Assembly: GCA_030743815.1 (NCBI GenBank)
Contig: JASLRT010000090.1
Location: 1 to 64,000 of the forward strand
Direction: 5' to 3'
Length of the DNA: 64,000 nt
From: Candidatus Neomarinimicrobiota bacterium
Lineage (GTDB): Bacteria; Fidelibacterota; Marinisomatia; Marinisomatales; S15-B10
Of this stretch, positions 21,382 through 54,117 are shown piece by piece. A program made the position numbers and the translations under genes. Below the pieces are notes generated by a model. The model worked only from the letters and a program-made list of their open reading frames with translations. It was not told the origin of the DNA and did no database searches. Position 1 is the first letter of the stretch. Every line of letters starts with the position of its first letter.

Positions 21382-23502
21382 CTATTTGAGGAGAATGAGC
21401 TTCATCGTCTGGTGTAGATTTCCTGCAATGAGTTGAGCGAAGTAAAGTCCACTCGGGAATCCCGACGCATCCCACGCTACTTCATGTCTACCAGTTATCA
21501 CTCCACCACTCACCAGTACTGCCACTTCCCGGCCGCTTAAATCGTAGATCGCGATGCGCAACTCAGATGCTTCAGGAACGTCGAAGCCGATGGCAGTCGT
21601 TGCATTGAACGGATTAGGGTAGTTCTGGTACAGAGAATAGTACTGCGGCAAGGTTGGTTCCGTGTCGACACTTACGGTCAGTTCGCCGAAGAGCATATCC
21701 TTGAATTCCCAGTCGCGATGAAGCTGCCACTGGTCATCAAAATGAGGGCTCCTGACGCCCATCCAACTGATAAAGCCGCTCTGGCCCGGAGGCACAATAT
21801 TTTCGTCGATCCAGCCGTCACCAGTGAGTTCAAATACCTGTTGATAAGAACCGTGGCTGTTGAGATTCTGCGGCACCGCTTTTACATCATCATAAGCGAT
21901 CGATGAGATGGGATCAACATATTCATACATTAACCTGACACGATGATCACCAACCCAGGGGACGTTGTCGCCATTGTCCCACCAACTCACCGGTTTGTTG
22001 TTCCAGTTGACAAAGTATTCCTGATCTGTGCTATCAGCTTGCGGCAGATCTTCGAACGGAATAAAGCCACCCCACTCCTCCGAACCGTCGCCCTTGTGCG
22101 GCAGACGCGGATCGACACCATCACTCCTGTCCTGGAACTTACCCGCATGCCAGTACTTCACGTTCTGATCCTGATCGGCATAGTGGAGGTTGAAATTCAT
22201 AACGAAGTGATCTCTCACCAGATTCTCAAACTGTTCAAGGGTCGTCGCCTTATAGCTGTTATAGAAAAATTTCATCATCGTTACCTCTTCTTTCCAGAAT
22301 GCCATTTTTTCAGCGAAAACCTGTTGTTTCTCAAGGTCTTCAGCGATGATGGGGCCGTGTACCGTCCTGTAGTGCGTAAATATTTCGCTGGCTCCCAGTC
22401 TGACATGGATTGTATCGGTGATGACCTCAAAATCGTGCCACTCGCCATTGTAGTAGTACTGACTAAAGGAGGCGTCTTTAGTAGAATCGATATAGATATC
22501 TGTATTATCGGAGACCCCGCTGGTCATGCTCCACGCATGATGATCCGTATGTCCGATAATAACACCAGGGATGCCCGCCACGGACATACCGCCGACGTGA
22601 AACTGGGGACAATCCAATTCTACTTCATTGGCAATCTGAACTTCATTATACCGTGGTTCTCCCATTTGTGGACAGCCGAGCAAAATCACATTCCCACTGC
22701 TGGATCTTTCCGGCGTTACTAGAACCGCAAAGCTACCGAACTTCGTGGGCAGATTATATTGATCCGCAATGACCTTTATCCCGGTTTGACGGCGCTCCAG
22801 TTTGTCCACAACTTCCGGTCTGACGGTCATTCCTGAATAATGCCATTCTCGCTGTGCCGCCGCGCCGCCATCCTGGATTGTGGTGGGAGCTTCAGGATCG
22901 TTGATGGGACGGTTATCATCGAACCAGTCTTGACCCTGATTCTGAAGTTCCACCAGGCGGCTGAGTTCGCTCCCGCCGAACTGTCCGAAATTGCGCCCCA
23001 GGTATTGACTGACAGCAAGGCTGTTAGAGGTCGTCCACGGTTCCATCTTTATATTAAGAAGGACGATCTCCTGCGGTTTGTATTTATTCGGATTGAGCGC
23101 CATGGTATCAAGAAATGTATTAACTCCCATAGCGTAGGCAGAGACGAAACTCTGAATCTGAAGCGGAAGATCGTCATACTGTTGCCGCCTCTCCTCTTCC
23201 GTATAGCCTACCGTTCTCGCTAACTTATCCCAGCCGAGAAGATCACCGCCGAGGACTTCCGCCATCCGCCCTTCCGCCGCGCGGCGATGGAACTCCATTT
23301 GGTTGAGACGGTCTTCCGCCACTGCAAATCCCTGACCAAAAAAGACGCCCACTTCATTTTCCCCTATAATGTGCGGGACACCGTACTCATCACGCAGGAT
23401 AGATACTGTTGAGCCGTCGGGGGCGGTTAGGGTACGATCGGCAGCCAGCGAAGCTGTAATCAATGCCGCTGTGAGGACAACAACCGTAATAAGTCTATTC
23501 AT
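21382..23502 (-). CDS. Secreted penicillin-acylase-family Ntn hydrolase with T9SS sorting domain
   Basis: A 706-aa secreted protein. After a signal peptide (about 1-21) it follows the penicillin amidase (S45) family: ILRDEYGVPHIIGENEVGVFFGQGFAVAEDRL, WDKLARTVG, and a candidate autocatalytic serine in TKFGSFAV (Ser257), with VGGMSVAGIPGVIIGHTDHHAWSMTSG matching the family's beta-chain core. A PGQSG...SPHFDDQW block near 585-605 matches the usual end of the domain. About 330 residues lie between Ser257 and that block, fewer than the family's usual 500 or so, so an inner segment seems missing. Residues about 624-706 (YQNYPNPFNATTAI, IYDLSGREV, GLYFAQL) are a classic type IX sorting domain. Likely acts at the cell surface on amides or acyl-homoserine-lactone-like substrates. 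This is inference. Confidence 0.88.
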   Translation of the reverse strand: MNRLITVVVLTAALITASLAADRTLTAPDGSTVSILRDEYGVPHIIGENEVGVFFGQGFAVAEDRLNQMEFHRRAAEGRMAEVLGGDLLGWDKLARTVGYTEEERRQQYDDLPLQIQSFVSAYAMGVNTFLDTMALNPNKYKPQEIVLLNIKMEPWTTSNSLAVSQYLGRNFGQFGGSELSRLVELQNQGQDWFDDNRPINDPEAPTTIQDGGAAAQREWHYSGMTVRPEVVDKLERRQTGIKVIADQYNLPTKFGSFAVLVTPERSSSGNVILLGCPQMGEPRYNEVQIANEVELDCPQFHVGGMSVAGIPGVIIGHTDHHAWSMTSGVSDNTDIYIDSTKDASFSQYYYNGEWHDFEVITDTIHVRLGASEIFTHYRTVHGPIIAEDLEKQQVFAEKMAFWKEEVTMMKFFYNSYKATTLEQFENLVRDHFVMNFNLHYADQDQNVKYWHAGKFQDRSDGVDPRLPHKGDGSEEWGGFIPFEDLPQADSTDQEYFVNWNNKPVSWWDNGDNVPWVGDHRVRLMYEYVDPISSIAYDDVKAVPQNLNSHGSYQQVFELTGDGWIDENIVPPGQSGFISWMGVRSPHFDDQWQLHRDWEFKDMLFGELTVSVDTEPTLPQYYSLYQNYPNPFNATTAIGFDVPEASELRIAIYDLSGREVAVLVSGGVITGRHEVAWDASGFPSGLYFAQLIAGNLHQTMKLILLK

Positions 23503-23702: not shown

Positions 23703-25217
23703 ATGGGTAAATGCAGGTTCACTTTGCTACATATTTCAGCACTCTTACTTCTTTCGTGCTCAAGTCAGCCCATTGAAGAGCTGACTATTACTGCATCTTC
23801 ATCTAAGGCTAAGGAACTATTCCTGGAGGCTCGATATGCCTCTCAGGAAAACAATGGTGGCGACGCCCGCGAAAAGTACAGAGCAGCGCTTGCCGAAGAT
23901 ACCGACTTTGTGCTGGCCAAACTATACATTAATGAACAGGACCCCATCAAGAACCGGCAGTACAGGCAAGAAGCTTTTGCCGCCAAAGATCGTGTCTCAG
24001 ACATGGAACGGTCATTCATCCAAATTGAAGAGAATATATTTGAAGGCAATTCGGACGGTAGGCTCGAAGCCGCACAGAAGTTGGTCGCCGATCATCCCAA
24101 TCTCCCGGAGGCGCATCTAGAACTGGGTTGGGCCTACAATGTGAGGAGAGAGCTCGATCAAGCAGCGGCGTCTTTCAAACAGTCCGTGGAGATTGACCGC
24201 GATTTCTATCCTGGTTGGTTCTCTCTCACATCACAACATGTGGGGGTCGGAAACAACATTGAGCTACCCGATGAAGAGAAGGACATGGACCTTGCGCTGG
24301 GCTACGCGGACGAGATGATACGAATCCGCCCCGACGCCGGTTACTCCTATCAGTTGAAGGGAAACATTTACCGGCATGCCAGCGATTTCGAAGCGGCCAA
24401 GAAAGTCTATGAGAAAGGGATCGAAGTCGATGAAGAGAGCGGCTCATCTCATATCAATACCGCCATACTGGTCTCCGCCCACAATCTTATGTTTAACGGT
24501 GAGTTTGAAGAAGCGCACGAACGCTACAGCCGTTCTATCTCTCTTGCTTCCAACCCTAACGGCAAGCTTAACTTGACCATTTACAAAATGTTCTCATACT
24601 TGCATCAGAACAGGTTTGATGAGGCAATTGACCTCCTCGCCGAAACGGAGTCAGGAATCGACGATATGGATCTGTCTGAAACGGCGGCCCTCGGCTGGAA
24701 AGCAGGACTTAATTTTCAGAAGTTCCTTGTCTATGGACACAGCCAGAGAAAGAAAGAAGCGTTCGAGGCTGTCGAAACGAATATCGCTCTCAGAGAGAAG
24801 ATGATGGTTAAACTGGATGATGAAATTACGAAACGGGACAACACAGCCGGCTTTGCATCACTGCGCGCCTGGTGCAATGTCCTGTTTGGCAATTATGATA
24901 CCGCTGAAAATCATCTTAACGAGGCAAAAGCTATACTTGAGAACATCAAAGATCCGACAATACTTGAAGGGTATTACGGTCTCAAAGGTATGATCGCCCT
25001 CAACCGCGGAAAGACCGATGAGGCGGTGAAGTTTTTCGAGAAGGTGGATGAAGCGAATAATCTGTACTACGGCTACTTCAAGGCGCTTGCGCTGAAGGGG
25101 GCTGGTGAGGATGAGCGGTCAAACAAAATTATTGAGGGGATCACCCGCTGGAATTTCTCCAGCTGGCACAGCGCCATTGTCCGCAACCTGGCTAAAAAAC
25201 AGCTTGGCTTATCCTAA
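23703..25217 (+). CDS. TPR-repeat lipoprotein
   Basis: A 504-aa lipoprotein (lipobox LLLSC, Cys19) made almost wholly of tetratricopeptide-type helix pairs. Clear repeats include AHLELGWAYNVRRELDQAAASFKQSVEID, YQLKGNIYRHASDFEAAKKVYEKGIEVD and YGLKGMIALNRGKTDEAVKFFEKVDEAN. Such proteins are scaffolds. It resembles the periplasmic TPR part found next to eukaryote-like kinases and sensors in FCB bacteria, but no enzyme domain is fused to it. GAGG lies eight bases before the ATG. It opens a plus-strand operon that goes on with a secreted TonB-C domain and the phosphatase sensor, so it may take part in sensing at the inner face of the outer membrane. Confidence 0.75.
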   Translation: MGKCRFTLLHISALLLLSCSSQPIEELTITASSSKAKELFLEARYASQENNGGDAREKYRAALAEDTDFVLAKLYINEQDPIKNRQYRQEAFAAKDRVSDMERSFIQIEENIFEGNSDGRLEAAQKLVADHPNLPEAHLELGWAYNVRRELDQAAASFKQSVEIDRDFYPGWFSLTSQHVGVGNNIELPDEEKDMDLALGYADEMIRIRPDAGYSYQLKGNIYRHASDFEAAKKVYEKGIEVDEESGSSHINTAILVSAHNLMFNGEFEEAHERYSRSISLASNPNGKLNLTIYKMFSYLHQNRFDEAIDLLAETESGIDDMDLSETAALGWKAGLNFQKFLVYGHSQRKKEAFEAVETNIALREKMMVKLDDEITKRDNTAGFASLRAWCNVLFGNYDTAENHLNEAKAILENIKDPTILEGYYGLKGMIALNRGKTDEAVKFFEKVDEANNLYYGYFKALALKGAGEDERSNKIIEGITRWNFSSWHSAIVRNLAKKQLGLS

Positions 25218-25250
25218 TTACAATTTCAATTGAATTGAGGACTAAAAATA

Positions 25251-25661
25251 ATGCCATTAAAACGAGGATTTAATATGATAGCCGTAAGAACATTCTTTCT
25301 CCTGGTGCTCCTGATAACATCATCGGTCGCGGTCGCGCAACAAAAAGACGAACAGGGCATCTACCTTGTCGCTGAGAAGATGCCTGAGATTAAGGGAGGT
25401 GTACAGACTGTCGCCAAGAAACTAAAATATCCGAAACAAGCGAAAGTTATGCAGGTTCAAGGTGTCGTCTATGTCGGTTTTATTGTCACTGAAGAAGGTA
25501 AAGTTAAAGAACCGAAAATCTTAAGACCGCTGGGTGCAGGTTGCGATGAAGAAGCTTTAAGGGTTGTTGAGGAATTGGAGTTTGTTCCCGGCTACCATCA
25601 AGGCAAGGCTGTTCCCGTGAGATTTGTCCTCCCTATCAGGTTCAGGCTCAAGAGGAGTTAG
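25251..25661 (+). CDS. Secreted stand-alone TonB C-terminal domain protein
   Basis: A 136-aa protein with a signal peptide (cleavage near VAVAQ) followed by a TonB C-terminal (TIGR01352-type) domain: KKLKYPKQAKVMQVQGVVYVGFIVTEEGKVKEPKILR, then CDEEALRVVEELEFVPG and VPVRFVLPIRFRL. It lacks the transmembrane anchor and proline-rich spacer of a true TonB, and no ExbB or ExbD gene is near. So it is probably not the energy transducer but a periplasmic protein that may bind a receptor or peptidoglycan. Both Met1 and Met9 (25275) have purine-rich ribosome binding sites, so the start is uncertain. It sits seven bases before the phosphatase-sensor gene and is probably cotranscribed. Confidence 0.75.
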   Translation: MPLKRGFNMIAVRTFFLLVLLITSSVAVAQQKDEQGIYLVAEKMPEIKGGVQTVAKKLKYPKQAKVMQVQGVVYVGFIVTEEGKVKEPKILRPLGAGCDEEALRVVEELEFVPGYHQGKAVPVRFVLPIRFRLKRS

Positions 25662-25667
25662 AGTTCG

Positions 25668-28600
25668 ATGAACGTAAGGCGGCGAATGCGGCTAGTAGTA
25701 CCATCTATCATTCTGTCCAGCTTCTTGTTGGCGGCGAACGGACAAATGGTCTTCCAGAGGATTACTAATGAAAATGGCCTGTCGGATAACGTCATCGGTT
25801 CAATTTCTGATGATAACAACGGTTTTGTCTGGCTTGGGACAACGGAAGGTCTCAACAGGTACGATGGTTATGACGTAACTGTTTTCTCCTCTAACCCGTT
25901 CGACAGCACGGCACTGTCAGGAAATAGAATCTGGAACCTCTACAAAGATTCCGCAGGTGATCTCTGGGCAATAACCGATAAGGGGCTGGACTTGTACCGT
26001 TATGGTAAGGACTCGTTCACACGATATACGACCGCGAGTAGACCTGTTTACGTCTTGGAGGACCGTGACGGCGTGCTCTGGGCAGCGACAAAACAGAGCG
26101 GCGTCTACAGAATTGATAAGTCGACGGGTGAAGTGAAGAGTTTTCAGTTCAGTCCATTAGACCCATATACGATTTCCAGTGACGATTTTGATGAAACACA
26201 GTTTACTCCAATTGTGGAGGACACCCTGGGCAATCTCTGGTTCGGCACCACCAACGGGCTTAATTACTATCGTAAGGATAAAGATATATTCATCCGTTTT
26301 TTCCACTCAGAGTCAGACACAAACACCGTATCAGACAACAGAATAAATACACTACTCATACTGGATAACAGCCTATGGGTAGGTACCCCGAGCGGACTGG
26401 ATAGAATCCGGATTGGCGATCTGAAGGTAGAGCGCTACGCCCGTACTCGCTGGTTCTCTATGGCTCAATCGTATGCGGTATCTCAATTAATACCGTTTAA
26501 GACAGGCGCACAAATGTCAGGATTCTGGATGGCCACTTACAGCGGACTTGTCTATTACGACGCGAATATGGACATGTTTGATGATGTGATTTACGAAAAC
26601 CTCTTTGGCAAGTTCGTCAGAGCCGTTTATGAAGGGATTGATGGTGATCTATGGATATATGTGGCTGGGTTCAAAGGCATTATCCATTTTAAGACTTCAA
26701 ACTTCTACAGTATGTATGGTCTGATTGATGAAGATGTAGATTTCGAAACGGCTGTACACGATCCTGAAGATGCCGGATCAATCTCTGGAAATGAGATAAC
26801 AAGTTTATTTATTGATGAAATGAAGAATGTCTGGATCGGTACTACAAAAGGGCTGAATAGACTCATCAAGACACCCAAGTACTTCCAGACACTCAATCCA
26901 AATACAACGAAGGATATCGTAAGGGGTCACAATATTGAATCAGTGAGAATTGATTCTGATAACTCTGTCTGGATTGGACACGAAAAAGGAGTTGACCATT
27001 TAACCAGTTCCCATGAACTGATCCGTAGCTACATCTCCGATCCAATGGATGAAAACTCATTGCTCACGGCGGAGACGGGTATTCTCGAGATTTCACCTGA
27101 AGGAGGGATCTGGATTGCAAGTCAGTACGCCGGCTTAACCCTAATAGATCCAGACAGTAATAAGTTTACGAGATTCCCCAATATTGAAGACGTTGACAGA
27201 GGTGATCAATTAGCAGGGAAAATACGTACCATCTACAGGGATCGAGAAGGGATTATGTGGTTCGCGACGTACGACGGAATTGCCAAACACAAGCTGGACA
27301 GATTCGTTATTTATAAGTACAACCCCAGTATGCAGAATGCGCATGTTGCCGGTGTCACAGCCTTTTTGGAGGACTCTGGAAACCACTTCTGGATTGGAAC
27401 GGAATCGAACGGTCTGTTCCGTACCGATAAGAAGACAATGGAACCAACAAAACACTACATTCTCGATCCAGACGACCCAAACAGTTTCTCCTCGAATGTA
27501 GTGGCATCCTTGTATGAGGACGGAGATGGTACCCTGTGGATCGGATCGGCGGGAGAAGGACTATACAGGTACAACAGGGACGCGGACAACTTTGCGAGAT
27601 ATTCAGTTGGCGACGGCTTGCCCAGCAACACTATTTCGTCAATTACCGCTGATAATGAAGGATTCTTATGGATGGGCACTCGACGCGGCGTAGCGAGGAT
27701 GAATCCCCAGGAAGAGTCATTCCAATCATTTACTGAATCAGACGGACTACCGGGGGATATCTTGAATCCGGCATCCATTGCCGTCAGTTCTCTTGGCAGG
27801 CTGTATTTTGGTGGTGTAGCTGGGCTTACAACAGTAAATCCTGGCAATATAACCACTAACCTTGACAAGCCTGCTCTGGCCATTGAAACGGTCGAAACGA
27901 TCGATTTCAGAGGTAACAAGCAGTTAGTCGATTTTTCAGAGGGTGCGATTGAGATTGATCACAGAATACAGTCAATTATCGTAAACTTCGTCGGCCTGAG
28001 CTACAATAAGTCAGTGAAGAATCAGTACGCCTACAGCCTAGAGAATTACTTGACCAACTGGGTTGACAACAGCACCAACAGATCGGTCTCACTGCAGGGG
28101 CTCGATCCTGACTCTTATACCTTCAAGTTCAAAGCAAGCAACAATGACGGCTTGTGGAACGAACAGCCGTACACTCTTCAAATAAAGGTGAATCCACCTT
28201 TCTGGAAGACTTGGTGGGCATATTCATCTTACGCCTTGGTGGTGCTGGTTGCAGGAGCATTTGTCGTCCATCAGGTAGACCGGGCTCAGCGCAGAAAGAT
28301 CGAAGAGAAACGAAAGACGGATGAACTCGCTGAGGCCAGAGATCTCCAGTTGAGCATGATTGCACAGGAAATGCCTAATATTTCCGGGGTAGAAGTTGAA
28401 GCCTACATGCGTACCAGCACAGAAGTAGGCGGCGACTATTACGATTTCTTTGAATTGCCGGACGGTAATATTTATGCTGTCTGTGGTGACGCAACAGGAC
28501 ACGGCACAAAATCGGGCATGATGGTCTCGATCACAAAAGCCGGGCTTTCCGGAATAGAATCGGAATCACCGGATGATATACTGAACTTGCTCGATCGCGT

Positions 28601-29051
28601 AGTAAAGCGGGTAGAGACTGGCAGACTGAGGATGTGCCTCAACATATGTGTGTTCAAGAACGGCGAAATTCATCTCGGTTCTGCAGCAATGCCACCCATT
28701 TACCACTACTCGGCGTCATCGCGGCAAGTGGAAGAGATAGCGATATCTAATCTGCCTTTGGGAGGTGGTGTTCAAGAACAGTTTGAGAAAGTAGAAAGGT
28801 CTTTTAACGATGGGGATGTTCTGGTAATGCTCTCAGACGGACTGCCTGAAGCACCCAATAATGAAGGTCACTTGCTTGACTATCCCGCAGTGAGGGACTG
28901 TATCGAGAACACCGCCAGCGGTGGTGCAAGAAAGGTCAAGGAGGCGCTGATAAGCCTTGGCGACGAATGGATGGCCGGTGTCCAAAACCCTGATGATATC
29001 ACTTTCATCGTCTTTGAGAAGAAAGAGTCCGCTCAAACCGCCACGGCGTAG
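25668..29051 (+). CDS. Two-component-propeller / Y_Y_Y / SpoIIE-type phosphatase sensor
   Basis: An 1127-aa membrane sensor. A signal sequence is followed by two seven-bladed Reg_prop propellers (about 30-730) with the usual W-L/I-G-T repeats (FVWLGTTEGLNRYDG, NLWFGTTNGLNYY, TLWIGSAGEGLYRY). A Y_Y_Y domain follows (about 765-842, YSLENYLTNWVDNS, GLWNEQPYTLQIKV), then one membrane helix (about 847-869). The cytoplasmic PP2C/SpoIIE phosphatase domain (about 895-1118) has its metal aspartates in VGGDYYDF (Asp923, Asp926), GDATGHG (Asp941), SDGLPEA (Asp1057) and NPDDITF (Asp1109/Asp1110). The usual partner of this sensor module is a histidine kinase. Here it is a Ser/Thr phosphatase, whose likely substrate is the STAS protein encoded two genes downstream. 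Confidence 0.92.
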   Translation: MNVRRRMRLVVPSIILSSFLLAANGQMVFQRITNENGLSDNVIGSISDDNNGFVWLGTTEGLNRYDGYDVTVFSSNPFDSTALSGNRIWNLYKDSAGDLWAITDKGLDLYRYGKDSFTRYTTASRPVYVLEDRDGVLWAATKQSGVYRIDKSTGEVKSFQFSPLDPYTISSDDFDETQFTPIVEDTLGNLWFGTTNGLNYYRKDKDIFIRFFHSESDTNTVSDNRINTLLILDNSLWVGTPSGLDRIRIGDLKVERYARTRWFSMAQSYAVSQLIPFKTGAQMSGFWMATYSGLVYYDANMDMFDDVIYENLFGKFVRAVYEGIDGDLWIYVAGFKGIIHFKTSNFYSMYGLIDEDVDFETAVHDPEDAGSISGNEITSLFIDEMKNVWIGTTKGLNRLIKTPKYFQTLNPNTTKDIVRGHNIESVRIDSDNSVWIGHEKGVDHLTSSHELIRSYISDPMDENSLLTAETGILEISPEGGIWIASQYAGLTLIDPDSNKFTRFPNIEDVDRGDQLAGKIRTIYRDREGIMWFATYDGIAKHKLDRFVIYKYNPSMQNAHVAGVTAFLEDSGNHFWIGTESNGLFRTDKKTMEPTKHYILDPDDPNSFSSNVVASLYEDGDGTLWIGSAGEGLYRYNRDADNFARYSVGDGLPSNTISSITADNEGFLWMGTRRGVARMNPQEESFQSFTESDGLPGDILNPASIAVSSLGRLYFGGVAGLTTVNPGNITTNLDKPALAIETVETIDFRGNKQLVDFSEGAIEIDHRIQSIIVNFVGLSYNKSVKNQYAYSLENYLTNWVDNSTNRSVSLQGLDPDSYTFKFKASNNDGLWNEQPYTLQIKVNPPFWKTWWAYSSYALVVLVAGAFVVHQVDRAQRRKIEEKRKTDELAEARDLQLSMIAQEMPNISGVEVEAYMRTSTEVGGDYYDFFELPDGNIYAVCGDATGHGTKSGMMVSITKAGLSGIESESPDDILNLLDRVVKRVETGRLRMCLNICVFKNGEIHLGSAAMPPIYHYSASSRQVEEIAISNLPLGGGVQEQFEKVERSFNDGDVLVMLSDGLPEAPNNEGHLLDYPAVRDCIENTASGGARKVKEALISLGDEWMAGVQNPDDITFIVFEKKESAQTATA

Positions 29052-29071
29052 GTACGAAGGGGAAACATAAA

Positions 29072-29491
29072 ATGCATGCAAAACCAAAAACGACAGTAGA
29101 ATTATCGATACCCGTAATTCACGACATGGAACTTGCCGCTACAAACACTGCGGAAGTAGTGGCAAAACATATGGATCTTAATGAAGAGGCCACCGCTGAA
29201 ATCAGTATGGCGCTCATCGAAGCGTGCCTGAATGCATTTGAGCACTCCAGATCGGATGGAGCAAACGTGTTCATACATTTTATCATAGAAGAAGATACTC
29301 TGATCATAAAAGTTGAAGATAAAGGCGTCGGTTTCGAAAGTGAGAAGGTTGAAATACCGGATATTGATGATAAACTGAAAGGCCAGAGAAAACGCGGGTG
29401 GGGACTTCAGATCATCAAAGAACTTATGGATTCAGTTGAATTTGAGTCTTCTGAATCGGGGACAACTGTAACAATGGTCAAGAATAAGTAG
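29072..29491 (+). CDS. RsbW/SpoIIAB-type anti-sigma serine kinase
   Basis: A 139-aa GHKL-fold ATPase of the anti-sigma-factor family (HATPase_c_2). The N box is ALIEACLNAFEHS (Glu50, Asn54), the G1 box is KVEDKGVGF (Asp83, Gly85), and the second glycine box is RKRGWGLQIIKELMD. These kinases phosphorylate a STAS partner on serine and bind a sigma factor or another target when the partner is phosphorylated. AGGGG lies before the ATG. The gene lies 20 bases after the phosphatase gene and 23 before the STAS gene, completing a partner-switching set. No sigma factor gene is adjacent, so the output target may be unlinked or may be the cyclase that follows. Confidence 0.9.
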   Translation: MHAKPKTTVELSIPVIHDMELAATNTAEVVAKHMDLNEEATAEISMALIEACLNAFEHSRSDGANVFIHFIIEEDTLIIKVEDKGVGFESEKVEIPDIDDKLKGQRKRGWGLQIIKELMDSVEFESSESGTTVTMVKNK

Positions 29492-29514
29492 AAGACTCTT
29501 AGGAGAGCAAAAGC

Positions 29515-29862
29515 ATGACAGATTTTGGCTTAGATGTTCGCGAAGCAAACGGTATCGTAATACTTGAGACCGATGGTTACCTGAATAACATCGCCGGGGA
29601 AAAGATTGCTGAAGTGTGTTCAGAGAAACTCGAAGAAGACAAGAAGATGTTTTTGATCAATCTGGAGAGAACTAAAGTAGTAAATAGTATTGGTGTATCG
29701 ATACTGATCGAGATAATTGAAAAGCTTCAAGGTGTAAATGGTAAACTTGGCTACTACAATTTGGTCCCAATTGTTGAAAAGACGTTCAATATCATGGGTC
29801 TGACCAAGTATTCCACTATCTTCCCCTCCGAAGAAGACGGCTTGGAAGCGTTTGCCGACTGA
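29515..29862 (+). CDS. RsbV/SpoIIAA-type STAS anti-sigma-factor antagonist
   Basis: A 115-aa STAS-domain protein. The fold pattern IVILETDGYLNNIAGEKI, MFLINLERTKVVNSIGVSILIEI, then KLGYYNLVP and IMGLTKYSTIF is typical. The phosphorylatable serine is expected at Ser58 in the loop VVNSIGVS, where many relatives have D-S-S-G. In this scheme the RsbW-like kinase phosphorylates Ser58 and the SpoIIE-like phosphatase removes the phosphate, freeing the STAS protein to hold the kinase. A good ribosome binding site (AGGAGAG) precedes the ATG. It is the third of three consecutive partner-switching genes, and the cyclase starts nine bases later. Confidence 0.9.
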   Translation: MTDFGLDVREANGIVILETDGYLNNIAGEKIAEVCSEKLEEDKKMFLINLERTKVVNSIGVSILIEIIEKLQGVNGKLGYYNLVPIVEKTFNIMGLTKYSTIFPSEEDGLEAFAD

Positions 29863-29871
29863 TCCTTCCCT

Positions 29872-31905
29872 TTGAACTCTGATTCCGATTACAAGGATCA
29901 AGTTGAATTCTACCTGAACGCCCTCGATGAATTGGGCGCTGTCCTGATAGATGAGGACAAGTCTTCCGGGATCAGCCGAGGCATACTGAGGATTATCCTT
30001 GGAACGATGATGGCGCCGAGAGGCGCCATTTTCATTCACAGCTCAGAAGGTCTGAAAGTAATGGCCGTCCAGGGAAACAAGAAGCTGAAATCACCACTGC
30101 CGTGGTCAGAAGAAGTCAGTAGTCAGTTGAGGGAGTTCAAACATTCGTCTCTCAGCGGCGGAGAAATCGACAGTCTCCTCAGCGATCTGCCCGAAAAGAC
30201 AAGGCGCTATTTCTCTGAGCTGGGCTGTGAACTGTATGTACCTCTCTACCACAAGAATTCTTTCATTGGGCTGCTTGCCCTGGGAAGGAAGTTCACTAAC
30301 GAAGATTTCACCGAAACAGAGATGAAAATCCTTGAGATTATCTGCAATCATCTCACTGACGCGCTCTATAATCAGGAACTTATTGAAGACATCCAGGAGA
30401 AAAGAACCGACTTACGCCTCAAACTGCTCGAATTGCAGACACTCTTTGACGTAAGTCTCGCCATAAGTTCTGTCCTCGATATGGACTCCCTCACGGAAGA
30501 AGTGCTCATTCGAGCCGCGGCAACGTTGAATGCTTCCACGGGATTCGTACTGATGGCTCAGGAGAACAGCCCAATCTTGAAACTGAAAGCCAGTTTCAAC
30601 GCCGATGAAGACCATCTGAACAAGATCATGTTTTCAACTACAAAGGGGGTACTCGCCGAGATCTGGAAAGGTCAAGAACCGAAAATGCTTTCGGTTGACG
30701 ATAATACTGAACTCCAGTCCAAGATCATGCACGATAATCTCTTGTTAGCACCACTCATCGGAAAAGACGGTGTGCTTGGATGTCTAGTGTTATGTGATAA
30801 GGAATCTCGAACTGGGATTGGTCCTTTTGCTTCTGAAGATCTAGAAATGTTGATGTCTCTGGCGGCGCAGGCGGGTGTAGCGATGGACAATGCTCGGCTG
30901 TTCAGAAACATCACTGATGCAAAACGTTTTAGTGAAAGCATCATGGGAAGTATTGCCACCGCTGTCATAACCACCAATCTATTAGGAGAAATAGACTCTG
31001 TCAACGACGCCGGCCTGAGGATTCTACAGATGCCGTCAGAGGAAATCATAGGAAATCACTATCAATATCTGTTCGAAAATGATTCCGCTGTGTGTGATGT
31101 CATATTAGCCGCCGAAACTAACCGGAAGATCGCTTCAGAGATGCATATCTCTTTTACCATAGGTTCAGATGAAACAATGATTAACATATCCGCCGCCCCG
31201 CTGACCGACTACCAGAACCAGCACCTGGGGATGGTTATTGCTATTGAAGATATTTCAATTGAAAACAAGATAAAGAACACTTTTAAACGTTATGTTTCCA
31301 AACAAGTAGTAGATCAATTACTCGATGATGAACGGGCACTGAATCTGGGTGGAGAAGAACGAGAGGTCACAATTCTTTTCAGCGACATCCGGGGTTTCAC
31401 AACCATGAGCGAAAACATGACGCCCGAGAAAGTGGTATCGACCCTGAATGAATATTTCAGTGAAATGATTGACATTGTTTTCAAACATAATGGTACTTTA
31501 GACAAGATCGTGGGTGATGAGCTGATGGTAATTTATGGGGCTCCCATTTCGTCTGAAGACGACTCTACTAACGCGATTGAAACAGCCATCACAATGACTG
31601 AATCGTTGAACAAATTGAACAATAAACGGATTGCCCGAAATGACGTGCCAATTAATATTGGAATCGGAATTAATCGTGGAAAAGTTATCTCTGGTAATAT
31701 CGGTTCAAAAGATCAGATGGATTATACCGTCATCGGGGACACCGTCAATTTGGGATCACGCCTTTGTTCAGTTGCTCAGGCGGGCCAAATACTCATATCC
31801 AAGGCTGCGAAAGAACACGCCCGAGGCTCCTTCAATTTTCATGAATTGGATCCGATTGAATTAAAAGGAAAAGCTAAACCGATACAAATCTACGAGGTGA
31901 TGTGA
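29872..31905 (+). CDS. Class III adenylate cyclase with GAF and PAS domains
   Basis: A 677-aa cytoplasmic protein that probably makes cAMP. Order: GAF-like domain (about 15-165), second GAF (about 185-345, TLFDVSLAISSVLDMDSLTEE), PAS (about 350-465, ITTNLLGEIDSVNDAGLRIL), a short linker, and a class III cyclase domain (about 488-677). Metal aspartates lie in LFSDIRGF (Asp505) and VGDELM (Asp549). Lys545 in LDKIVGDE and Thr619 in MDYTVIGD sit where adenine is read. A Thr there is typical of class IIIb (bicarbonate-responsive) cyclases. Asn626 and Arg630 of VNLGSR complete the site. The start is TTG with no clear ribosome binding site, nine bases after the STAS gene, so translation may be coupled. 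The Crp-type gene at 53389 is a candidate reader of its product. Confidence 0.88.
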   Translation: MNSDSDYKDQVEFYLNALDELGAVLIDEDKSSGISRGILRIILGTMMAPRGAIFIHSSEGLKVMAVQGNKKLKSPLPWSEEVSSQLREFKHSSLSGGEIDSLLSDLPEKTRRYFSELGCELYVPLYHKNSFIGLLALGRKFTNEDFTETEMKILEIICNHLTDALYNQELIEDIQEKRTDLRLKLLELQTLFDVSLAISSVLDMDSLTEEVLIRAAATLNASTGFVLMAQENSPILKLKASFNADEDHLNKIMFSTTKGVLAEIWKGQEPKMLSVDDNTELQSKIMHDNLLLAPLIGKDGVLGCLVLCDKESRTGIGPFASEDLEMLMSLAAQAGVAMDNARLFRNITDAKRFSESIMGSIATAVITTNLLGEIDSVNDAGLRILQMPSEEIIGNHYQYLFENDSAVCDVILAAETNRKIASEMHISFTIGSDETMINISAAPLTDYQNQHLGMVIAIEDISIENKIKNTFKRYVSKQVVDQLLDDERALNLGGEEREVTILFSDIRGFTTMSENMTPEKVVSTLNEYFSEMIDIVFKHNGTLDKIVGDELMVIYGAPISSEDDSTNAIETAITMTESLNKLNNKRIARNDVPINIGIGINRGKVISGNIGSKDQMDYTVIGDTVNLGSRLCSVAQAGQILISKAAKEHARGSFNFHELDPIELKGKAKPIQIYEVM

Positions 31906-31950: not shown

Positions 31951-32685
31951 TCACTCCTCAGATGATAGGTTCTCGATCTTCTGGGCAATATCGTCCAGTT
32001 TATATTCTATAACGGTATAGTGCGTCTCGATCCTGTGTAACCGTTCCTCAATCTCCTCATCCAGGATAAAATAATCTGTCACCATGGAAATAAAGGTGCC
32101 GAATAGAACCAATCCGGAAAAGATCAGTGCAACCGAAATAACCTTCCCTTCTACTGTTGCAGGCTCAACATCGCTGACGAATCCTAGCGTCGTGATGGTG
32201 ATAAGATTCCACCAGACACTATCTCCCAGTGTATTGATGTATTCGTTAGCAATTTTCTCGAATTGATAAAAACTTATTGAGGAAAGAAGCAATATTAGAA
32301 CTGTGAGGAACACTATATTTTGAAATGAGGATAAAGCGTCATTTTTATTAAAAATAAAATGCACATGCCTCAATGAACGGACCAGTCTAAGAATTCTGAT
32401 AATTCTAAATACTCGACCGTACCGAAGGAATCCGACTGCAGGGATTGATGATACCGCATCAATCCAACGAGACTTCAGGTATTTCGTTTTGTTGTCTGAC
32501 TTCACGAGGCCAACCGTAAAATCTCCGAGGAAAACGAAGCAGATGAGAGTGTCTATGATCAAGAGAATGTCCAGCGTTCTATCTGAAAAGGTTACGACCG
32601 TTTCGAGATAGACCTCAGCAATCACATAAACGGATAAGACAAATATGAACTTATCAAAGCCGCTTAATCCTTTTAAGAACTTCAT
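31951..32685 (-). CDS. Voltage-sensor cation channel with atypical pore filter
   Basis: A 244-aa membrane protein of the voltage-gated ion channel family. Segments S1-S3 lie within about 13-100. S4 carries seven arginines three residues apart (Arg88, 91, 94, 97, 100, 103, 106), a textbook voltage sensor. S5 is about 124-141, and the pore loop has LITITTLGFVSDVEP (about 161-175). Known potassium channels have T-V-G-Y-G-D here. This one reads T-L-G-F-V-S-D, with one extra residue and no second glycine, so selectivity is uncertain. S6 (about 182-205) and a short coiled tail (IEERLHRIETHYTVIEYKLDDIAQKIENL) could form a tetramer. AGGGGG lies before the ATG. Confidence 0.85.
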   Translation of the reverse strand: MKFLKGLSGFDKFIFVLSVYVIAEVYLETVVTFSDRTLDILLIIDTLICFVFLGDFTVGLVKSDNKTKYLKSRWIDAVSSIPAVGFLRYGRVFRIIRILRLVRSLRHVHFIFNKNDALSSFQNIVFLTVLILLLSSISFYQFEKIANEYINTLGDSVWWNLITITTLGFVSDVEPATVEGKVISVALIFSGLVLFGTFISMVTDYFILDEEIEERLHRIETHYTVIEYKLDDIAQKIENLSSEE

Positions 32686-53388: not shown

Positions 53389-54069
53389 TTAGCTGAATGT
53401 CCGCTTGAAGAGGGTATAGTCCTGTATGGAAAGAGTGTGCGCCTTTCGTTTGATCATCCCCTTTTCTTCCAACAGTTTGAGCATTCTCGAGACGGTCTCG
53501 CGAGATGTCCCAGCCATGTTGGCAAGATCCTGCTGATAAGGCATTTTGGTAATCTCAACCACCCCATGACGAATCGTACCCAGCTCTTCGGCGAGCCTCA
53601 GTACGGTCATCCCGATTCGATGTTCAGCATCGCTCAGAGAGAGGCTCTCAATCTGCTGATCGCTCTTGCGGATCCTGCCGGCCAACTCTGACAGGAGTGA
53701 GATGGCTATCTTGGGATATTTCTGCAGCAGGTCAATAAAATCGTGACGCTTTAGAATCAGAACTTCCGCATTATCAAACGCAATGGCGTTAGCCGATCTT
53801 GTCTCTCCATCGAGCAGAGACATTTCACCGAAAAAATCTCCCTCACCAAGCATGGCCAGGATAACTTCACGTCCCTCTTCACTTACACGGGTGATTTTTA
53901 CGGTCCCCTTACTGATGATGAAGAATGTATCGCCGAACTCATCCTCCATGAGGATCATGTTATTCTTTTTGTACTTCTGTCTGGACATACGGGAGTGCAA
54001 CTCGTCCAGTTCTAAAGAGGTTAGATCCGAAAAGATGGGGACAGATGCAAGAAGTTCGATGTCACTCAT
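53389..54069 (-). CDS. Crp/Fnr-family transcriptional regulator
   Basis: A 226-aa one-component regulator. The N-terminal cyclic-nucleotide-binding-type domain (about 8-125) has FGDTFFIISKGTVKITRVSEEGREVILAMLGEGDFFGEMSLLDGETRSANA, where the FGEMSLL-x(4)-RSANA block matches the phosphate-binding cassette of cAMP-binding members, and no Fnr-type cysteine cluster is present. The C-terminal winged helix has DLANMAGTSRETVSRMLKLLEEKGMI. Binding cAMP is plausible, given a cyclase gene at 29872 in this window. ATG at 54069 is taken as start; a GTG just before it is possible. A CRP-like half-palindrome lies about 50 bases upstream. Confidence 0.9.
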   Translation of the reverse strand: MSDIELLASVPIFSDLTSLELDELHSRMSRQKYKKNNMILMEDEFGDTFFIISKGTVKITRVSEEGREVILAMLGEGDFFGEMSLLDGETRSANAIAFDNAEVLILKRHDFIDLLQKYPKIAISLLSELAGRIRKSDQQIESLSLSDAEHRIGMTVLRLAEELGTIRHGVVEITKMPYQQDLANMAGTSRETVSRMLKLLEEKGMIKRKAHTLSIQDYTLFKRTFS

Positions 54070-54117
54070 CACCGGAAACTAAATGCGTATTGTGAAAAAA
54101 TCAATCTGTTTTGGGAT

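Follow-up and report, generated by a model that had tools for sequence, protein, structure and literature searches.

We analysed a 64,000-nucleotide stretch of DNA (positions 1 to 64,000 of contig JASLRT010000090.1, assembly GCA_030743815.1; hereafter the window) from an uncultured ocean bacterium (Candidatus Neomarinimicrobiota), whose metagenome-assembled genome (MAG) is 2.1 Mb in size and 97% complete. Within it, four genes on the + strand encode, in this order, a sensor phosphatase (25668–29051), an RsbW/SpoIIAB-type Ser/Thr kinase (29072–29491), an RsbV/SpoIIAA-like STAS switch protein (29515–29862) and a GAF-GAF-PAS class III adenylate cyclase (29872–31905). An earlier reading of the bare letters, called the sequence-only reading below, had described these genes as a full partner-switching set followed by a class III cyclase, and had suggested that an outside ligand might act, by way of partner switching, on cyclic AMP (cAMP). 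The open reading frames and Pfam matches agree with that gene content and place the cyclase start, a TTG codon, behind a gap of 9 nt after the STAS stop codon (29863–29871). The closest relatives of the cyclase sequence were found in Candidatus Marinimicrobia/Neomarinimicrobiota MAGs.

A complete partner switch upstream of a class III cyclase

The sensor phosphatase matches Reg_prop (2.8e-44), Y_Y_Y and SpoIIE (PF07228, 1.3e-23). It is laid out as a signal peptide (recognised by eye), a Reg_prop propeller, Y_Y_Y, a single transmembrane segment predicted from hydrophobicity at about residues 849–867, and a SpoIIE/PP2C domain at residues 931–1117 in which the metal-binding Asp motifs are kept (GGDYYD, GDATGHG, SDG and DDIT). 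The propeller is joined to SpoIIE without a HisKA or receiver domain, which is not the architecture of a hybrid two-component system. The sequence-only reading had remarked on this coupling of a sensor module normally tied to histidine kinases with a PP2C phosphatase; the coupling is real, but propeller–SpoIIE fusions are not rare in the phylum, one genome (G133) having six SpoIIE domains, several of them with propellers.

The kinase (HATPase_c_2, PF13581, 2.6e-22) is related to the solved structures of RsbW (6m36) and SpoIIAB, and its N box (E50..N54), G1 box (D83xG85xG87) and G2 box (G109-W-G111) were invariant across 14 orthologues. The STAS protein (PF01740, 3.7e-11) carries a putative phospho-acceptor, Ser58, which aligns with the phosphoserine of SpoIIAA (VVN-S58-IGVSIL), sits in the near-invariant VVNSIGVSILIEII and is itself invariant in orthologues. 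We found one SpoIIE domain and one STAS domain in the genome, both in this operon, and the operon kinase is the only HATPase_c_2 match above the curated cut-off. All members of a partner switch are present, namely a SpoIIE phosphatase, a HATPase_c_2 kinase and a stand-alone STAS protein with a phosphorylatable Ser. The linked SigB/SigF/SigG-type target expected of an RsbU/RsbV/RsbW-type switch was not seen: none of the SigB/F/G and FliA models passed its cut-off in the genome, no sigma factor gene adjoins the operon, and the four proteins with sigma-70 region 2 (two RpoD-like and two extracytoplasmic function (ECF) factors) are all encoded on other contigs. The sequence-only reading, too, had seen no adjacent sigma factor.

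The cyclase is CyaB-like (Pfam Guanylate_cyc 7.5e-34, GAF and PAS) and has a class III Guanylate_cyc domain instead of a GGDEF domain, which was absent by Pfam. An AlphaFold model, confident for each domain but poor in domain arrangement (pTM 0.35), places a GAF domain at about residues 32–137, a helix at 148–199, a second GAF domain at about 204–340, a PAS domain at about 363–460 and the catalytic domain at about 496–676. Anabaena CyaB1 and CyaB2 have this GAF-GAF-PAS-catalytic layout as well. Cya2, CyaB and CyaC are the closest solved catalytic domains, and the catalytic residues D505, D549, K545, T619, N626 and R630, invariant in orthologues, match those of Pseudomonas aeruginosa CyaB (3r5g). 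K545 and T619 are the adenine-specifying Lys/Thr, D505 and D549 the metal Asp residues, and N626 and R630 are the transition-state residues; because of the match to CyaB, the predicted substrate is ATP. With respect to the NKFDE motif of cyclic-nucleotide-binding GAFs, alignment of the second GAF domain revealed an NK..F..D-like motif in most orthologues and D-K in the window protein. The N-terminal GAF (N-GAF; residues ~8–175, 29893–30396, + strand) is the proposed receiver of the STAS protein, on the strength of an hhalign comparison given below. Residues 181–200 (LRLKLLELQTLFDVSLAISS; 30412–30471, + strand), at the end of a 52-residue predicted helix between the GAF domains, have a mean conservation of 0.86, equal to that of the catalytic core, although the second GAF also begins there; this stretch is a candidate for docking the STAS protein or transmitting its signal. 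The genome encodes one further class III cyclase.

Switch and cyclase genes are linked in five families of the phylum

The full cyclase was found in 16 of the 245 phylum genomes that made up our comparison set. A STAS orthologue was present in 22, including all 16 cyclase genomes, and RsbW orthologues in 21; the sole cyclase genome without RsbW is G123, whose contig ends inside the STAS gene. Orthologues were called at sharp gaps in score, about 160 vs 64 bits for STAS (except for the contig-edge fragment in G123) and 199 vs 78 bits for RsbW. Co-occurrence gave a Fisher p of 1.5e-20, uncorrected for the relatedness of the genomes, which makes independent events far fewer. The RsbW-STAS-cyclase order was kept wherever the contig reaches, in five families (f1, f2, f11, f13 and f18), with a STAS-cyclase spacing in relatives of usually 5–14 nt. 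Representatives of the families have the switch, sensor and cyclase genes in common, but few of their other neighbours. Because the order recurs in all genomes with sufficient contig, the linkage is more than chance.

In one genome (G024) a STAS gene lies on both sides of the cyclase gene; the downstream one of the two is the more divergent (L055:7275–10556). The cyclases at L008, L009 and L010 have the catalytic domain alone in common with the window protein, and no switch genes were detected at these loci by homology to the window proteins.

The cyclase operon of f13 adjoins dnaN-recF-dciA-gyrB-gyrA (L047–L054) and probably lies near the replication origin; we rejected these neighbours as partners, their synteny being of the replication-origin type. 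A Marinimicrobia f13 operon with a dnaN-gyrA-type neighbourhood, judged by gene size and order, is also found at L007, on a contig labelled Methylococcales (MPSY01000005.1), where it is probably MAG contamination. Four further f13 loci (L129, L130, L131 and L132) hold a second STAS family, with the motif VNNYG and no Ser at the switch position, directly 5' of another propeller–SpoIIE gene. At L131 a TonB-dependent receptor is encoded two genes upstream, and at L130 (2747–6541) a propeller and a truncated SpoIIE (first half) are in frame with DUF3500, as a fusion or an assembly artefact.

Sigma-54 activators in the place of the cyclase

Four genomes from two further families (G222; G242, G243 and G244; families f30/f31) have a sigma-54 activator gene after RsbW and STAS (L136:6814–8997, L179, L180 and L193). 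This protein of about 480 residues has an N-terminal GAF, a sigma-54 AAA+ domain and a Fis-type helix-turn-helix, and in G242–G244 the STAS stop and the activator start overlap as ATGA. The N-GAFs of cyclase and activator were mutual best matches, with hhalign scores of 98–103 vs 13–69 for the cyclase N-GAF against other GAF groups; the activator GAF scored 26 against the second GAF of the cyclase and 13–53 against other GAF groups. In profile comparisons of the switch proteins, the activator-linked STAS and RsbW sets likewise scored best against the cyclase-linked sets, a result that is helped by the greater depth of the cyclase-linked profiles; in the reverse direction, the cyclase-linked set matched the second f13 STAS family slightly better than the activator-linked STAS. 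The STAS helix sequences of the cyclase- and activator-linked sets are alike (NSIGVSILIEII and NSLLVAIFFEIL), while SSAGL types are found elsewhere.

These comparisons point to the N-GAF as the part addressed by the switch, with outputs that may be swapped, because the whole trio would have been inherited and the C-terminal output alone exchanged. As a tentative generalisation, to which we give rather less than even credence, RsbW-STAS and an N-GAF receiver may form a portable switch in the phylum, its output being a cyclase or a sigma-54 activator depending on the family. If true, it would represent a class of switches whose targets are GAF-bearing effectors, not sigma factors. The N-GAF common to cyclase and sigma-54 activator also suggests, in a specific form that can be tested, how a STAS protein might be directed to different outputs. 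The RsbW-STAS-sigma-54 activator arrangement is in itself an apparently unreported output of a partner switch. GAF matches at RsbW-STAS loci of f8, f1 and f25 were considered as further outputs and rejected; they belong to GAF-SpoIIE phosphatases and are more likely inputs.

Comparison with known partner switches

The best-known role of partner switches is the release of sigma factors; wherever a cyclase was the controlled enzyme in the papers that we searched, its product was cyclic di-GMP (c-di-GMP). RsbU-RsbV-RsbW and SpoIIE-SpoIIAA-SpoIIAB consist of the same three protein families with the same catalytic motifs as the operon studied here, but their target is sigma B or sigma F, and no such sigma was found in this genome. 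Closest in logic is SiaABCD of P. aeruginosa (PMC7278518, PMC8457831, PMC7647112), where one operon holds a membrane PP2C phosphatase, a kinase, a STAS-like protein and a nucleotide cyclase, with no sigma factor. An Asn precedes the switch residue in both systems (N67-T68 in SiaC, N57-S58 here); we rejected the idea that this Asn distinguishes STAS proteins that control cyclases, since it also occurs in STAS proteins with other outputs. SiaD, however, is a diguanylate cyclase that makes c-di-GMP, whereas the operon here has a GAF-GAF-PAS class III adenylate cyclase, a kinase and STAS protein of the ordinary RsbW/RsbV Pfam families, and a propeller sensor that is not of the SiaA type. Although similar to SiaABCD in the way it works, the operon does not belong to that system, given its different cyclase, its different sensor and the different families of its kinase and STAS protein. 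The dephosphorylated switch protein is the active form in SiaABCD (PMC7278518), and the part of SiaD that SiaC binds is a coiled-coil stalk (PMC8457831), to which the inter-GAF helix of our cyclase may be compared as a structural analogy only.

A STAS anti-anti-sigma protein also acts on a nucleotide cyclase in the HptB-HsbR-HsbA-HsbD system of P. aeruginosa (PMC5085249), but there the phosphorylated form of HsbA binds and activates HsbD, HsbA also binds the anti-sigma factor FlgM, and the product is c-di-GMP. For BgrU/BgrW/BgrV-BgrR of Sinorhizobium meliloti, the passage on it in PMC7647112 describes a phosphatase/kinase pair that sets a STAS protein controlling a cyclase, and names no propeller sensor; BgrR is a diguanylate cyclase making c-di-GMP. 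With P. aeruginosa CyaB (3r5g) our cyclase has the K/T substrate residues in common, but it differs from CyaB-type cyclases in that its N-GAF groups with the GAFs of the RsbW-STAS-linked sigma-54 activators and its gene is coupled to a switch.

In the open-licence literature that we searched, no adenylate cyclase was described as being under the control of a partner switch. The sequence-only reading had called such a route unusual, and it would be so with respect to the cAMP output, but a switch acting on a nucleotide cyclase is already known for c-di-GMP (SiaABCD, HsbA-HsbD, BgrUVW-BgrR). The parts are ordinary, and the wiring is conserved and apparently unreported; what is new is cAMP as the product, a cyclase of the CyaB-like kind, a propeller as the input and an N-GAF common to two outputs.

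Proposed mechanism and alternatives

Our preferred explanation, held with slightly better than even confidence, is that the STAS protein, set by the kinase and the phosphatase, binds and gates the cyclase, so that a signal leads to a change in cAMP. The periplasmic propeller, perhaps together with a TPR lipoprotein and a TonB_C-domain protein encoded 5' of it, would sense an outside signal and tune the cytoplasmic PP2C domain. The RsbW-type kinase would phosphorylate Ser58 of the STAS protein and the PP2C domain would take the phosphate off again, and one phospho-state, most likely the unphosphorylated one as for SiaC, would bind the N-GAF/helix region of the cyclase and alter its activity. 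For the ligand-to-cAMP route of the sequence-only reading, the good support lies in the conserved gene linkage, the cyclase never being found without STAS, the missing usual sigma target and the output-swapped relatives. The STAS genes on both sides of the cyclase in G024, the adenylate-type active site, the CRP-like receptors in the genome and the precedents SiaABCD and HsbA-HsbD also speak for the mechanism. From these we infer the interaction, the phosphorylation and the cAMP change, along with the binding site, the polarity and the ligand. If true, the mechanism would extend partner switching to cAMP, as the first reported route of this kind as far as the open-licence literature searched shows, and would provide a large uncultured marine phylum with a defined way of turning an outside signal into a second messenger.

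The resulting cAMP change would be read by CRP-like proteins. The genome has six matches to cyclic-nucleotide-binding domains, one of them in a CRP-like regulator in the window (53389–54072, − strand) with an FGEMSLL...RSA cassette of the kind typical of cAMP binding; this regulator is a candidate reader of the cyclase product.

Several points weigh against this mechanism. The cyclase operons of G114, G115, G121 and G131 have no adjoining SpoIIE gene. In addition, six f11 genomes (G075, G076, G086, G095, G103 and G104) have sensor-RsbW-STAS without the GAF-GAF-PAS cyclase. It was also not found elsewhere in these six genomes, in which other class III cyclases are present. The genes after STAS in these six, on its strand, are ExbB-ExbD-ExbD-TonB, unless the contig ends first. 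The switch might in these genomes serve another target, or it might have two targets everywhere. Lastly, the polarity of the switch, although likely to be that of SiaABCD by analogy, with the dephosphorylated form active, is uncertain, because HsbA works in the opposite sense, its phosphorylated form binding the cyclase.

In a tree of RsbW and STAS, the switch-only clade (support 100) is sister to the window clade (100) and nested among cyclase-bearing operons, with deeper nodes of 86 and 51 (weak basal support), and the switch-only state reads as one event of cyclase loss. K70 of STAS, in the helix after the phospho-site, is replaced by D or E in this clade, and STAS has diverged faster with respect to RsbW (ratio 1.49 vs 1.22 in range-matched pairs); both changes would fit a release of STAS from contact with the cyclase, as a weak signal from a single event. 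The switch genes at L123–L127 (f11) have ExbB-ExbD-ExbD-TonB and an S41 peptidase as neighbours, and a link between the f11 switch and TonB-energised uptake is possible.

The retention of RsbW-STAS without the cyclase in six genomes would also fit a classical switch, in which RsbW sequesters an unlinked sigma factor (RpoD-like or ECF) and the cyclase is merely co-transcribed. A primary-type sigma can be the target of an RsbW, as reported for sigma66 of Chlamydia (PMC4552016). Yet no SigB/F/G or FliA model exceeded its cut-off, no sigma gene adjoins the operon, no such cyclase occurs without the switch, and an unrelated output with the same N-GAF takes the same place in other families, all of which make us regard a sigma target as unlikely. 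Slightly less probable again, in our judgement, is a direct action of RsbW on the cyclase, by binding or phosphorylation, with STAS titrating RsbW away, as for the RsbT-type kinase MtT and the diguanylate cyclase MtG of Moorella, a precedent described in PMC7647112. Gene order and co-occurrence fit this arrangement equally well; the STAS gene, however, is the one nearest to the cyclase gene and in G024 flanks it as two copies, and the clearer changes upon cyclase loss are in STAS, not RsbW (K70 to E/D and the ratio of 1.49 vs 1.22, with the weakness of a single event).

The TonB_C gene in the operon, and ExbB-ExbD-ExbD-TonB beside the switch in f11, would be accounted for if switch and cyclase had only their promoter in common and worked in different pathways, the target of the switch being TonB-energised uptake (ExbB/ExbD/TonB) or something else. 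We consider such co-regulation the least probable of the alternatives: in the cyclase-bearing f11 genus the exb-like genes are on the opposite strand, in other families they are not beside the switch, and RsbW, STAS and cyclase stay together while exb-like genes do not.

Operon setting and neighbouring genes

Two co-directional genes lie at short spacing 5' of the sensor gene. One encodes the TPR lipoprotein (23703–25217, + strand), recognised from TPR matches and a lipobox-like LLSCSS in the translation, and the other the small exported TonB_C-domain protein (25251–25661, + strand; PF03544, 1.9e-17). An orthologue of the former is found at the same position in G133, G146 and L007, and of the latter directly 5' of a propeller–SpoIIE gene in G146, G075, G076, G086 and G104. 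Because both hold the same place in relatives, they probably belong to the same unit, which would span 23703–31905, and the TPR lipoprotein is a probable outer-membrane or periplasmic accessory of the sensor. Promoter and terminator scans gave no signal beyond shuffled expectation. On the 3' side, the neighbour of the cyclase gene is a convergent ion channel gene (31951–32685). On the 5' side, a gene on the − strand (21382–23502) encodes a large penicillin-acylase-like protein with a C-terminal segment that, by eye only, resembles a secretion sorting domain (YPNPFN...).

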